Of a stretch of 64,000 nt of DNA, positions 54,589 through 64,000 are shown piece by piece. The position numbers and the translations under genes are program-made. The notes under the pieces were generated by a model. That model was not told the origin of the DNA, searched no databases, and was given only the letters and a program-made list of their open reading frames with translations. Position 1 is the first letter of the stretch. Each line of letters starts with the position of its first letter. The stretch is from Spirochaetales bacterium (GTDB taxonomy: Bacteria > Spirochaetota > Spirochaetia > DAHUYW01), in contig DAHUYW010000006.1 in NCBI GenBank assembly GCA_027306915.1, positions 1 to 64,000 on the forward strand, given 5' to 3'.

Positions 54589-55776
54589 TTACAGAAGCGC
54601 TGCAAAGGAGCTGCCCTTCTGGAGCCCGCCGACCTGAAAGAGGTCCGCGAGCGTCCGCGCGGCGTCGAAGTAGCCCTGCCGGACTCCGAGGCTCCTACCG
54701 GGCCTTCCCGCCCTGTACGCCAGGATAGGGACATGCTCACGGGTGTGGTCGCTTCCCTTGAAGGTGGGATCGCAGCCGTGGTCCGCGGTGACGAGGAGAA
54801 GGTCACCGTTTGGGAGGAGGGGCAGCATCCTCCGAATGCCCGCATCTACGCCGGACACCGCGTCGAAGTAGCCCTGCACGTCCCGCCGGTGCCCGTAGAC
54901 CATGTCGGTGTCAACAAGGTTGACGAAGATGAGCTCGCCGCGGGCGGCGGAGGGCTTTCGAAGCAGCTCGATCGTCCGCTCGAGGCAGGCGGGATTGCCC
55001 TTGTCGTGATGGCTCTCGACGATGCCCTGCTCGTTGAAGATGTCGCCGATCTTGCCGACACCGATCGTTTGGACGCCAGCCCCGGCGAGATGATCGAGGA
55101 GGCTTTTCTCGGGGAGGGCGATGCTGAAATCCCTCCGCCCCGAGCTGCGCGTGAAGGCGCCCGGTCTCCCGATAAAGGGTCGGGCGATGACGCGGCCGAC
55201 CTGGTAGGGATCGCACAGCCGTCGAGCTATCTCGCACATCCGATACAGCTCGCTCAAGGCGATCACCTCCTCGTGAGCCGCGATCTGAAAGACCGAGTCG
55301 CTCGAGGTGTAGACGATTGGTAAGCCCGTGCGCAGATGCTCGGAGCCGAACTCCTCAATGATAACCGTCCCGGAGGCGGCTTTGTCGCCGAGGACCCCGC
55401 GCCCGATCTCACGCTCGAAGGCTGCGATAAGCTCCGGAGGAAAGGAGGGAGGGCCGGACGGAAAGGTGTGGAAAGGCTTCACCAGCTGGATGCCTGCAAG
55501 CTCCCAGTGACCGGTGGTGGTATCCTTGCCGGGCGAGCGCTCGACCATGACCCCGTAGCTTGCGGCAGGACGCTCGACCGCACCGCAGCCGGGCAGCTCG
55601 TTTCCGAGGAGGAGGGAGGCGTTTCCAAGACCAAGGGCCGCAAGCGTCGGCCATTTCTCTCCGGCAATCCGCTCGCAGATGTGGAGCGCGGTGTTGGCGC
55701 CCGTGTCGCCATAGGCGGCGGCATCCGGGGCTTCGCCGATTCCGAAGCTGTCGATGACGAGAATGGTCGCACGCAC
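54589..55776 (-). CDS. deoB: Phosphopentomutase
   Basis: A 395-residue alkaline-phosphatase-superfamily enzyme starting at GTG 55776 (ribosome-binding site AGAGG). The nucleophile Thr is in DTTTGHWE (about residue 86), with metal-binding motifs VIDSFGIGEAPD, DTDMVYGHRRD and VTADHGCDPTFKGSDHTREH. It interconverts deoxyribose-1-phosphate (from nucleoside phosphorolysis) and deoxyribose-5-phosphate, the substrate of DeoC. It is the last gene of the microcompartment operon, 131 nt after deoC, and has no encapsulation peptide. Confidence 0.95.
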   Translation of the reverse strand: MRATILVIDSFGIGEAPDAAAYGDTGANTALHICERIAGEKWPTLAALGLGNASLLLGNELPGCGAVERPAASYGVMVERSPGKDTTTGHWELAGIQLVKPFHTFPSGPPSFPPELIAAFEREIGRGVLGDKAASGTVIIEEFGSEHLRTGLPIVYTSSDSVFQIAAHEEVIALSELYRMCEIARRLCDPYQVGRVIARPFIGRPGAFTRSSGRRDFSIALPEKSLLDHLAGAGVQTIGVGKIGDIFNEQGIVESHHDKGNPACLERTIELLRKPSAARGELIFVNLVDTDMVYGHRRDVQGYFDAVSGVDAGIRRMLPLLPNGDLLLVTADHGCDPTFKGSDHTREHVPILAYRAGRPGRSLGVRQGYFDAARTLADLFQVGGLQKGSSFAALL

Positions 55777-55907
55777 CTTTTTACCTCTGCCGCCACTTCA
55801 CCAGCTTCGTCCCCTTTTGTAAAGACCGCTGCCGGCAACCGAGGCAGACAGAGCGGCTGCGGCGGCCGGAGAGACGTCAAGCTCCGCGAACCCGTTCCCG
55901 AAGCCGG

Positions 55908-56720
55908 CTAGTATCCCCCTTGAACGGTTTCTCCGGAGACGATCTTGACGCCGGCGCTGGTTCCGAGCCGGGTGGCCCCGGCCTCGATCATTTCGACTGC
56001 GTCGGCGAAGCTGCGCACCCCTCCGGCAGCCTTTACCCCCATCTTCGGCCCGACGGTCCGTCGCATGAGGGCGACGTCGCGCACCGTCGCGCCGTGGGTC
56101 GAGAAGCCGGTCGAGGTCTTCACGAAGTCCGCCCCCGCCTTCTTTGCTATCTCGCAGGCTAGGATCTTCTCCTCGTCGGTGAGGAGCGCGTTCTCGAGTA
56201 TGACCTTGAGCAGCACGCCTCCGGTGCAGGCGCGGCGCACCCAGAGGATGTCGTCTTCCACCACCTTGAGATTGCGCGAGCGCATGGCGCCGATATTCAT
56301 GACCATGTCGATCTCGCGGGCCCCGTCGTCGATCGCCTGGCGGGCTTCGAAGTTCTTCTGCCGTCCCGCCATCGCCCCGAGCGGAAAGCCAACCACAGCC
56401 GCGACCTTGACCCCGCTTCCCGCAAGGCGCCGCGCACAATGCGCAACCCACCCTCCGTTCACGCACACCGAGAAGAACCGGTACTTGACCGCTTCGTCGC
56501 AGAGCTGGTCGATCTGCGCCTCGGTTGCATCCGCCTTCAGCAGGGTGTGGTCGATGTAGGGAGGAAGATCGGAGGGGGTGAGGACCTTTCGCGCGATGGG
56601 CCGCACGCCTGCCTGGTCACCGGCGCCCGCCGCCGCCTCGCGCGAGACGCTCTTCGCCTGCGCCGCAAGGCTTGCCACCACCTCTTTCGTGATCCGCTCA
56701 ATCAGCTCCTTGTCTGCCAT
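55908..56720 (-). CDS. deoC: Deoxyribose-phosphate aldolase with N-terminal encapsulation-type helix
   Basis: A 270-residue class I aldolase. Schiff-base Lys201 is in FVKTSTGFS, the second Lys230 in GVKAAGGVRS, and Asp138 in EIDMVMNIG. The fold begins near residue 55 (YIDHTLLKADAT), so some 45 residues are extra. The first 21 (ADKELIERITKEVVASLAAQ) form an amphipathic helix followed by an Ala/Gly-rich linker, the pattern of microcompartment targeting peptides. It splits deoxyribose-5-phosphate to glyceraldehyde-3-phosphate and acetaldehyde. It abuts rpiB. Confidence 0.95.
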   Translation of the reverse strand: MADKELIERITKEVVASLAAQAKSVSREAAAGAGDQAGVRPIARKVLTPSDLPPYIDHTLLKADATEAQIDQLCDEAVKYRFFSVCVNGGWVAHCARRLAGSGVKVAAVVGFPLGAMAGRQKNFEARQAIDDGAREIDMVMNIGAMRSRNLKVVEDDILWVRRACTGGVLLKVILENALLTDEEKILACEIAKKAGADFVKTSTGFSTHGATVRDVALMRRTVGPKMGVKAAGGVRSFADAVEMIEAGATRLGTSAGVKIVSGETVQGGY

Positions 56721-62670: not shown

Positions 62671-63750
62671 ATGACCGGGCGTGTTCACCTAAGGAAGGAT
62701 GATTTCCGTCGTATCGAAACCACCCTCTTCGAGCTCGACCGATTGAAAGTCAGCTCCTTTCTCTTCGGCACCGGAGTGCACGCTCTCCGGCTCGGATCAC
62801 CGCGCGGGCACATTGTGGTGCTTCCCTACCAGGGCCAGCAGGTGTGGGATGCTGTCTTTGAGGGGCGTCGGCTCACCATGAAGACCTTCTTCCCGGAACC
62901 GGTGGGCTCTGCAAGCCTTTTGGACTCCTACGGCGCTTTCCTTTACCACTGCGGGGCGCTGCGCATGGGCACCCCTGGGCCGGAGGATGATCATCCGCTT
63001 CACGGCGAGCTTCCCGCGGCCCCTTACCAGGAGGCGTGGATCGATTTCGGCGAAGAAAAAGGCGAACCCTACGTCGCAGTCTCAGGTTCCTTCGCTTACA
63101 CAAAGGCCTTCGGCGACAAGTACAAAGCCACACCGTCCGTGAGGTTGTACCGGGATCGGACGGTGCTCGATGTGAGCATGTTCATAGAAAACCTCGCCCA
63201 TTACCCGATGGACCTCATGTACATGTGTCACGTCAACTTCCTTCCTGCAGAGAACGGCGAGATCGTACAGACCGCCGGTTGGAATACGACCGACATGGTC
63301 GTTCGCTCGAGCATTCCTTCCCACGTCAAACCGACCAAGCAGTACCTTGCCTTTCTCGATCGACTGAAAGAGGATCCCGGTGCTACACGCATCCTGCGTC
63401 CCGAGGACGAGTACAACCCCGAGATAGTCTTCTACGTGAGAAATCTCAAGCTCGACAGCGACGGCATGACACACACTATCCAAAAGCATCCCGACGGAAC
63501 CTCCGATTACGTAAGCTACAACGGGGAGGCACTGGATCACACGGTCAGGTGGATCCTCAAACACGAAGACCAGCAGGTCCTGGGTATGGCCCTGCCTTCG
63601 ACCTGTGATCCGGAAGGCTATACGTCGGAAAAGAAAAAGGGCAACGTGCGTACGATCGCGTCCATGGGGAAGGTCGCCTTCTCGATCCGAACCGGGTTCC
63701 TGGACGCCGCTCAGACGAAGCAGATGGAATCCAAAATTCGTTCGCTCTGA
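62671..63750 (+). CDS. DUF4432 (DeoX-like, aldose-epimerase fold) protein
   Basis: A 359-residue protein of the galactose-mutarotase superfamily, DUF4432 branch: GHIVVLPYQGQQVWDAVFEGRRL at the N terminus and MYMCHVNFLP in the centre. The enteric deoxyribose operon (deoQ-deoK-deoP-deoX) holds a gene, deoX, that I recall as belonging here, but I could not run a comparison. A role in mutarotation of deoxyribose is plausible. The ribosome-binding site is GGGAG, and it lies 22 nt after the deoR-like gene. Confidence 0.7.
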   Translation: MTGRVHLRKDDFRRIETTLFELDRLKVSSFLFGTGVHALRLGSPRGHIVVLPYQGQQVWDAVFEGRRLTMKTFFPEPVGSASLLDSYGAFLYHCGALRMGTPGPEDDHPLHGELPAAPYQEAWIDFGEEKGEPYVAVSGSFAYTKAFGDKYKATPSVRLYRDRTVLDVSMFIENLAHYPMDLMYMCHVNFLPAENGEIVQTAGWNTTDMVVRSSIPSHVKPTKQYLAFLDRLKEDPGATRILRPEDEYNPEIVFYVRNLKLDSDGMTHTIQKHPDGTSDYVSYNGEALDHTVRWILKHEDQQVLGMALPSTCDPEGYTSEKKKGNVRTIASMGKVAFSIRTGFLDAAQTKQMESKIRSL

Positions 63751-63800
63751 GCCTTCGTGAGGCGGCGCGCGCCGCGTAGGCAGATGAAGGGGGCAAGGGA

Positions 63801-64000
63801 ATGAAGAGACCAAGAATCACCATAGTCGGCAGCAACATGGTGGACCTGATTACCTACATTGACCGCATGCCGCGGGAGGGGGAAACGATCACGGCTCCCC
63901 GCTTCGAGATGGGCTTCGGCGGCAAGGGGGCAAATCAGGCGGTGGCTGCCGCCCTACTGGGGGCCGAAGTGCACATGGTCACCAAGGTCGGAGACGATCT
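63801..64000 (+). CDS. Ribokinase-family sugar kinase, deoxyribokinase-like (3' partial)
   Basis: Only the first 66 residues are in the window. They read MKRPRITIVGSNMVDLITYI at the start and GGKGANQAVAAALLGAEV later, the PfkB/ribokinase N-terminal signature. IVGSNMVDLITY with RMPREGET is notably close to the enteric deoxyribokinase DeoK as I recall it, in which GSNMVDLITY replaces the usual ribokinase GSxNxD. It would phosphorylate deoxyribose at C5. AAGGGA precedes the ATG. There is no N-terminal helix, so it should stay in the cytosol. Confidence 0.8.
   Translation, partial: MKRPRITIVGSNMVDLITYIDRMPREGETITAPRFEMGFGGKGANQAVAAALLGAEVHMVTKVGDD

Follow-up and report, generated by a model that had tools for sequence, protein, structure and literature searches.

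A rebuilt RpiB active site in sugar-phosphate-utilising microcompartments, seen from a spirochaete locus with deoxyribose-type genes

Why does a microcompartment apparently devoted to 2-deoxyribose-5-phosphate (dR5P) carry RpiB, a member of a ribose-5-phosphate (R5P) isomerase family? Since dR5P has no C2 hydroxyl (O2), its aldose-ketose isomerisation is impossible. The question is raised by a shell operon at the end of a 64,000-nucleotide stretch (the window) of contig DAHUYW010000006.1 from a Spirochaetales bacterium, which encodes the aldolase DeoC, an RpiB homologue, an acylating aldehyde dehydrogenase (AldDH) and DeoB, and which faces genes for a DeoR-family regulator, a DUF4432 protein and a PfkB kinase. 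We consider it likely, from comparison of the encoded proteins, that this is a sugar-phosphate-utilising (SPU) compartment for dR5P with a non-canonical RpiB.

The SPU class, among the most prevalent compartment types according to Sutter 2021 (PMC8217296), is defined by DeoC (PF01791) and RpiB (PF02502), and a breakdown of DNA sugar via acetaldehyde to acetyl-CoA has been proposed for it (Sutter 2021; Axen 2014, PMC4207490). An earlier note on this stretch, made from its letters alone, rightly recognised the class as a catalogued one. Its statement that the substrate of the class had been unclear is not so, as the deoxyribose idea is already in print in both papers. The passages on the class in these papers give no explanation of why RpiB marks it, although its sugar cannot be isomerised. 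The new point is thus the rebuilt active site of RpiB.

The RpiB active site in SPU operons

The window AldDH was searched against GTDB genomes, and the loci around the best 80 of 226 matches were compared (36 from Bacteroidota, 35 from Spirochaetota, 6 from Atribacterota, 1 from Acidobacteriota and 2 without phylum; L and G numbers denote individual loci and genomes). The active-site loop, ICGTGLGISI or similar in solved RpiBs, reads IDGAGIGSSM in the window protein. We aligned the window RpiB with those of 67 loci, as 13 of the 80 had no RpiB of at least 120 residues called (cut, short, fused or dropped in open reading frame (ORF) picking). In all 68 sequences, the catalytic Cys is replaced by Asp and the Thr by Ala; in the window protein the two are Asp75 and Ala77, numbered on a 156-residue translation starting at 57191 (an ATG lies at 57200). 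Also retained in 68/68 are the Asp-His of SDH, the Tyr of DYPD, the His and Asn of SRxHN, the Arg, His and Arg of GGRH..R and the Arg of GIRA, the equivalents of His102 and His138 included, but the loop glycine after the Cys column varies (Gly in 43, Ala in 22, Ser in 3).

As a paired control, we examined 70 of the 81 PF02502 matches in 33 SPU genomes of spirochaetes (the 11 not fetched were mostly weak or partial), together with the window. Asp/Ala occurred in 31/31 SPU-linked proteins, whereas 0/40 others had Asp (38 Cys, 2 Gly of GNGE type); L200 and L201, whose sole SPU sign is a match to a neighbouring aldehyde dehydrogenase, were counted as non-SPU. Sixteen more genomes, mostly of other phyla and with 30 of their 42 matches examined, gave 12/12 against 0/18 (17 Cys, 1 Gly), so that the pooled control stands at 43/43 SPU-linked versus 0/58 other RpiB-family proteins. 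The 120 database proteins nearest to the SPU RpiB of Candidatus Vecturithrix, a set chosen by similarity that overlaps the other counts and hence is not independent, had Asp in 119 and Asn in 1, Ala in 115, Val in 4 and Ser in 1, and both His in 120/120.

According to these alignments, the active site is non-canonical in every SPU operon examined, from Spirochaetota, Bacteroidota, Atribacterota and a few others; the survey covers relatives of the window AldDH rather than the subtypes SPU1-7 one by one. The earlier note had named the protein RpiB, which holds for its family-level score, over the TIGR01120 cut-off, but not for its active site, where Asp and Ala replace Cys and Thr; the residues of isomerisation are missing, and so is the GNGE motif of the Glu75-variant RpiBs. 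A structural model of the window protein (predicted local distance difference test (pLDDT) 79) has 3HE8 as its best Foldseek match (template modelling (TM) scores 0.77/0.81), but since this model comprises a single chain, poorly predicted at its C-terminus, and does not show the active site between subunits, our reading of that site rests on the alignment.

The altered proteins also appear to share one origin. In a tree of 35 of the 68 SPU RpiBs and 43 others (40 genomic, 3 from the PDB), computed by a quick method without bootstrap and with ten motif columns removed, all SPU sequences fell on one side of a branch with a Shimodaira-Hasegawa-like approximate likelihood-ratio test (SH-aLRT) value of 100 and a stem of 1.1, and thus form one clade.

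The roles of these residues have been described for canonical RpiBs (PMC4783025, PMC3755991). Cys69 takes the C2 proton, and its replacement abolishes activity (C69A of T. cruzi, C69S of L. donovani). A proton is shuttled between O2 and O1 by Thr71, and LacB is slowed about 20-fold by T67A. The ring oxygen O4 receives a proton from His102, and His138 has been proposed as the base on O1H in M. tuberculosis. Of the two oxygens served by the lost Thr, one is absent from deoxyribose. Since the Cys base and the proton-shuttling Thr are lost and the ring-opening histidines are kept, we propose that SPU RpiB is a ring-opener: it may open the furanose ring of dR5P and pass the reactive aldehyde so exposed directly on to DeoC within the shell. 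This is the least certain step of our reading, and we offer it tentatively. The substrate is 99.8% furanose and the aldolase reacts with the open aldehyde; the aldolase has no ring-opening His of the phosphoglucose-isomerase type, and a water held by Lys172 has been suggested instead (PMC5975929).

Cargo signs were sought at the N-termini with patterns for encapsulation-peptide-like helices that were written after the termini of RpiB and DeoC had been read; a first, earlier pattern for RpiB had given no matches. Such helices were matched in 17/68 SPU RpiBs and in 0/41 others, 3 of these 41 being PDB segments that start at the domain. The DeoC pattern matches 60/63 DeoCs. Of the misses, L044 has no helix, in L024 the same helix comes after a longer lead, and from L019 a different DeoC was compared, the copy in its operon having the helix.

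Several points weigh against ring opening in the lumen. The window RpiB has no encapsulation-like helix. The ring-opening role of His138 is disputed, as T. cruzi H138A points to binding only (PMC4783025). Above all, R5P opens spontaneously at 40-100 per second, and the opening of dR5P is expected not to be rate-limiting (PMC5975929); in answer, if the aldolase is at millimolar concentration and its substrate scarce, as may hold within a shell, spontaneous opening, being first-order, could lag behind what the aldolase is able to process.

A rival reading is that SPU RpiB is a working R5P isomerase with Asp as its base, in a compartment handling both ribose and deoxyribose from nucleosides. The score over the TIGR01120 cut-off would fit, and DeoB, as textbooks have it, also acts on ribose-1-phosphate. 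Carboxylate bases do occur in isomerases, Glu75 of M. tuberculosis RpiB being an example (PMC4783025), which speaks against our proposal. However, the Thr/Ser of the O2-O1 proton transfer is lost as well in 68/68, a residue whose loss is costly in LacB (see above). Moreover, by the proteins examined, 24 of the 33 SPU genomes encode one or more further members of the RpiB family, some of other subfamilies that need not act on R5P. In 7 of the 33 (G003, G005, G006, G019, G020, G021 and G033) the SPU RpiB is the only RpiB-family match, and 4 of these 7 (G005, G006, G020, G021) have RpiA (PF06026), which was found in 9/33 overall. By these family matches, housekeeping R5P isomerisation has another candidate in most SPU genomes. 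Three draft genomes (G003, G019, G033) are excepted: no R5P-isomerase-family protein besides SPU RpiB, RpiA included, was found in them, and this counts for the isomerase and against us. Finally, Atribacter laminatus RT761, which has a microcompartment cluster with an N-extended DeoC, is reported not to use ribose, although its micrographs were without compartments (PMC7736352). Taken together, we regard a working isomerase as unlikely.

The operon and its relatives

The operon runs on the minus strand from 61684 to 54589, about 7 kb, and its genes and those divergent from it are as follows.

61388..61684, minus strand: BMC-H shell protein (hexamer), first gene of the operon; PF00936, 103.0 bits
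60738..61376, minus strand: CcmP-like double-stacked BMC-T; NF053796 CcmP model, 272 bits, below the cut-off of 340; PF00936, 19.9 bits, below cut-off
60402..60710, minus strand: BMC-H shell protein; PF00936, 101.8 bits
60088..60399, minus strand: BMC-P pentamer; PF03319, 91 bits
59804..60091, minus strand: BMC-P pentamer; PF03319, 89 bits
59198..59782, minus strand: PduT-like tandem BMC-T; PF00936 in two stretches, 115.8 bits; TIGR02526, 82.9 bits, below the cut-off of 250
57777..59201, minus strand: acylating AldDH of PduP/EutE type; PRK15398, 622 bits, cut-off 403; N-terminal helix-like extension by eye
57497..57766, minus strand: BMC-P pentamer; PF03319, 90.8 bits
57206..57496, minus strand: BMC-P pentamer; PF03319, 100.4 bits
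56721..57200, minus strand: SPU-type RpiB homologue; PF02502, 172 bits; TIGR01120, 146 bits, cut-off 138.65; motif IDGAGIGSSM
55908..56720, minus strand: DeoC, deoxyribose-phosphate aldolase; TIGR00126, 279 bits, cut-off 117; encapsulation-peptide-like N-terminus MADKELIERITKEVVASL
54589..55776, minus strand: DeoB, phosphopentomutase, end of the operon; TIGR01696, 414 bits, cut-off 341
61685..61841, no strand: intergenic region common to the shell operon and the DeoR-DUF4432-kinase genes; sequence read
61842..62648, plus strand: DeoR-family regulator, DeoQ-like by context; PF00455, 150 bits, and PF08220, 41 bits
62671..63750, plus strand: DUF4432 protein, DeoX-like by context, with a galactose-mutarotase-like fold; PF14486, 66 bits, cut-off 32.5
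63801..64000, plus strand: PfkB kinase, DeoK type by context and clade, cut at the window end; PF00294, 57 bits on 66 residues

Family models thus recover every gene that the earlier note had listed here: the eight shell genes (two BMC-H, two BMC-T, PduT-like and CcmP-like, and four BMC-P), DeoC, the PduP-like AldDH, DeoB, RpiB, and the divergent DeoR, DUF4432 and kinase genes. DeoC and AldDH, on which it had described N-terminal helices, do have helix-like extensions there, that of AldDH by eye, and the lysine motifs of DeoC were read along with its N-terminus. The start of DeoC is the base right after the RpiB stop (CAA TAG ATG).

With its shell genes, PF01791 DeoC, PF02502 RpiB and an acylating AldDH above the PRK15398 cut-off, the locus is by its gene content a member of the SPU class. 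The closest relative of its AldDH among the 80 is 92% identical and comes from a metagenome-assembled genome of Spirochaetales (L001). AldDH, BMC-P and BMC-P are consecutive in 64/80 loci and are followed by RpiB and DeoC in 56/80; since this row is kept so widely, the arrangement is not chance, and several loci outside the 56 end at contig ends or lost a small ORF in ORF picking. DeoB is present in 7/80. In one Bacteroidota locus (L062), RpiB and DeoC are fused into a protein of 424 residues, with the loop LDGAGIGSSM and an internal encapsulation-peptide-like helix; an RpiB-DeoC fusion in Marinimicrobia has been reported (Axen 2014, PMC4207490). Among the matches listed in the open-licence literature on SPU, DeoC, RpiB and microcompartments, we found no experimental study of any SPU enzyme.

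Some relatives carry further genes. In two SPU operons, the gene after DeoC belongs to the class II aldolase family (L006:13370-14107, L028:13438-14172) and perhaps provides a second way of forming an aldehyde. Two SPU-type loci (L007 and L019) lie on one spirochaete contig, JAJSAL010000008.1, where a second, non-operon DeoC-family gene is found upstream of the L019 operon. ABC transporter genes at L073:2948-5697 are located near an SPU operon, and their binding protein is BMP/PnrA nucleoside-binding-like by eye, which would fit nucleoside uptake.

Within the window, DeoB is followed by a gene for a 962-residue protein with FlgD-like immunoglobulin (Ig) repeats and a C-terminal OmpA domain (51608-54496, minus strand), as also in L001 and L002. 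About 5 kb from the compartment operon, a cobalamin adenosyltransferase ORF (PF01923; 49093-49803, minus strand) overlaps a GPH-type sugar symporter ORF (PF13347; 47739-49172, minus strand). Farther away, a sugar-type cluster at 32006-42197 comprises a GFO/IDH/MocA oxidoreductase, a TIM-barrel isomerase, a creatininase-like protein, a Zn alcohol dehydrogenase, two LacI-type regulators, and an ABC sugar-type binding protein with its permease.

The sugar of the locus

The evidence for deoxyribose at this locus comes largely from the DeoR-DUF4432-kinase trio. A tblastn search of plasmids with the window DUF4432 matched 64 records, and 21 regions, chosen for genus spread, were opened. An rbsK-named kinase lies within a few genes in 18 of the 21, deoC and a DeoR-family regulator in 15 each, and a transporter of sugar ABC or FucP type in 19; an aldehyde dehydrogenase directly follows deoC in 6. 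Exceptions are Agrobacterium T29, where a 35% DUF4432 homologue has none of these genes nearby, Roseomonas, without rbsK, and L. pentosus, where the stretch ends at the record start. The E. coli region L209 has the order DeoR, kinase, FucP, DUF4432, which is that of deoQKPX, a 2-deoxyribose utilisation operon (PMC10926698). A DeoR-family regulator, a DeoK-clade kinase and DUF4432, a set of deoQKPX type, are thus present together in the window.

The window kinase fragment, ITIVGSNMVDLITY, is 76-83% identical over 66 residues to three spirochaete kinases of full length. Two of these have DUF4432 as a neighbour, and the third (L127) has not. The motif GSNM[VMI]DL is common to the three and to 16 of the 18 kinases linked to DUF4432 on plasmids. 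A quick tree of 38 kinases groups the three with 17 of these 18 (SH-aLRT 94); the outlier, from Vibrio HDW18, lies beside rbsD. Sequence comparison of DUF4432 with solved structures gave nothing meaningful. In a fold search of the PDB, its AlphaFold2 model (pLDDT 89.9) came closest to the putative aldose 1-epimerase 3ty1 (TM 0.80, by query length).

Because of the kinase clade, the DUF4432/DeoR context in the 21 plasmid regions and DeoB in the operon, deoxyribose as the sugar of this locus appears well supported. The earlier note had come to the same sugar, less newly than it claimed. Several observations pull the other way. NCBIfam labels the relatives of the window kinase ribokinase, and family models do not separate DeoK from RbsK, as PMC10926698 also states; the activities of the two enzymes overlap (PMC13432705), and the window kinase was judged on 66 residues and close full-length relatives. 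In 23 of the 33 SPU spirochaete genomes, the search for DUF4432 gave no match (E up to 1e-3), and its homologues in G016, G027 and G031 have other neighbours.

The trio could be an unrelated sugar cassette that merely adjoins the shell operon. This would accord with the 23 genomes and with G004, where the trio and the SPU operon lie on separate contigs. However, DeoR is divergent from the shell genes across one short region in both the window and L001, and divergent from them in 12/80 loci, L001 included; in addition, homologues of the trio sit with deoC elsewhere. We consider such a coincidence rather improbable.

The assignment does not extend far. The earlier note had let the trio give a sugar to the whole class, a role that we reject, since DUF4432 occurs in only two SPU loci of the 80 besides the window, namely L001 (cut by the contig end) and L020 (cut by the end of the stretch examined). 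Of the 33 spirochaete genomes with an SPU operon, 10 gave a DUF4432 match (E below 1e-40 in 7), as did 10 of 296 genomes across the phylum. Where its homologues are at least 55% identical and the region is complete (G004 and G017), the kinase is directly next (L103, with the full-length kinase at 9297-10217, and L102); those of G001 and G018 are at contig ends. As judged from these gene neighbourhoods, the trio is therefore informative for this locus and a few relatives, not for the SPU class.

A candidate operator of DeoR was also noted. Of 13 intergenic regions between DeoR and the first shell gene, 4 contain the perfect 15-base-pair palindrome TAACAnnnnnTGTTA (L005, L009, L019, L024; mononucleotide shuffles gave a mean of 0.006 and at most 1); those of the window and L001 lack it.

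A proposed route and its known counterparts

In the route that we propose, free 2-deoxyribose would be taken up by a transporter outside the window, the mutarotase-fold DUF4432 protein would balance its anomers, and the DeoK-type kinase would phosphorylate it, while deoxynucleosides would enter as deoxyribose-1-phosphate through DeoB; DeoR would control both sides of the divergent region. RpiB would then open the dR5P ring, DeoC would cleave the open form, and AldDH would capture the acetaldehyde. Acetaldehyde as the intermediate and acetyl-CoA as the product are what DeoC together with a PduP/EutE-type AldDH would be expected to give. A scan of 35 window proteins yielded neither PduL nor an Fe-type alcohol dehydrogenase nor a nucleoside phosphorylase, which tells against this route. 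The same proteins were searched for a deoxyribose-type transporter, and gave transporters recognised by family only, of MFS (25512-26819 and 50297-51559), GPH (47739-49172) and ABC type (39873-42197).

Two further explanations would give RpiB another part in this compartment. It might have no catalytic role and, as a partner of DeoC, keep that enzyme in place within the lumen or a complex, as its loss of the catalytic base and its place next to DeoC, once in a single fused chain (L062), would suggest. Yet a mere scaffold would not need the other checked active-site residues, which are invariant in 68/68, the one loop glycine excepted, and we find this partner role doubtful. Least probable seems an RpiB that isomerises or epimerises another sugar phosphate, with DeoC acting on its product or on a second substrate: RpiB-family enzymes are promiscuous and the class II aldolase-family genes of L006 and L028 could be read in this sense, but an aldose-ketose isomerase and DeoC cannot act in series on one 2-deoxy sugar, and the trio and DeoB point to deoxyribose at the window locus.

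Should SPU RpiB not be an isomerase, the class would have been misread in one of its two defining enzymes, and the oddity of an isomerase in the pathway of a non-isomerisable sugar would come down to a matter for a simple enzyme assay. Ring opening, if true, would account for the constant company of RpiB and DeoC in the class. A carboxylate-for-thiol swap would then have turned an isomerase into an enzyme kept for a spontaneous reaction, whose benefit might be limited to the enzyme densities reached within a shell. At the window locus, the trio makes growth on deoxyribose directly testable.

Compared with the SPU loci of Axen 2014 and Sutter 2021, the window locus has the same shell types, DeoC (PF01791), RpiB (PF02502), AldDH and proposed DNA-sugar breakdown; it differs in the added DeoB and deoxyribose uptake-type trio and in the non-canonical RpiB active site. 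With canonical RpiBs (EC 5.3.1.6; PDB 3HE8, 2VVR), the SPU protein shares the fold, the ring-opening His and the phosphate-binding Arg and His, whereas the catalytic Cys is replaced by Asp and the Thr/Ser by Ala. The deoQKPX operons of Salmonella and E. coli likewise combine a DeoR-type regulator, a DeoK-type kinase and DUF4432 at the DeoX position; they have no shell, and the gene order of the window is different, with DeoP not visible before the window ends inside the kinase. Alphaproteobacterial deoxyribose-type operons (L134, L135, L216, L218-L220: DeoR, sugar ABC, DUF4432, kinase, deoC, aldehyde dehydrogenase) follow the same pathway logic, but the stretches shown list neither shell genes nor RpiB, and the dehydrogenase after deoC is far longer, about 790-800 residues. 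For ring opening itself, the nearest counterpart is the anomerase YhcH, which supplies open sugar to the sialate aldolase NanA (PMC8141875). Although YhcH is a zinc protein of the DUF386 family with a pyranose substrate, it is, like the RpiB proposed here, an operon-encoded ring-opener that feeds an aldolase its open form.

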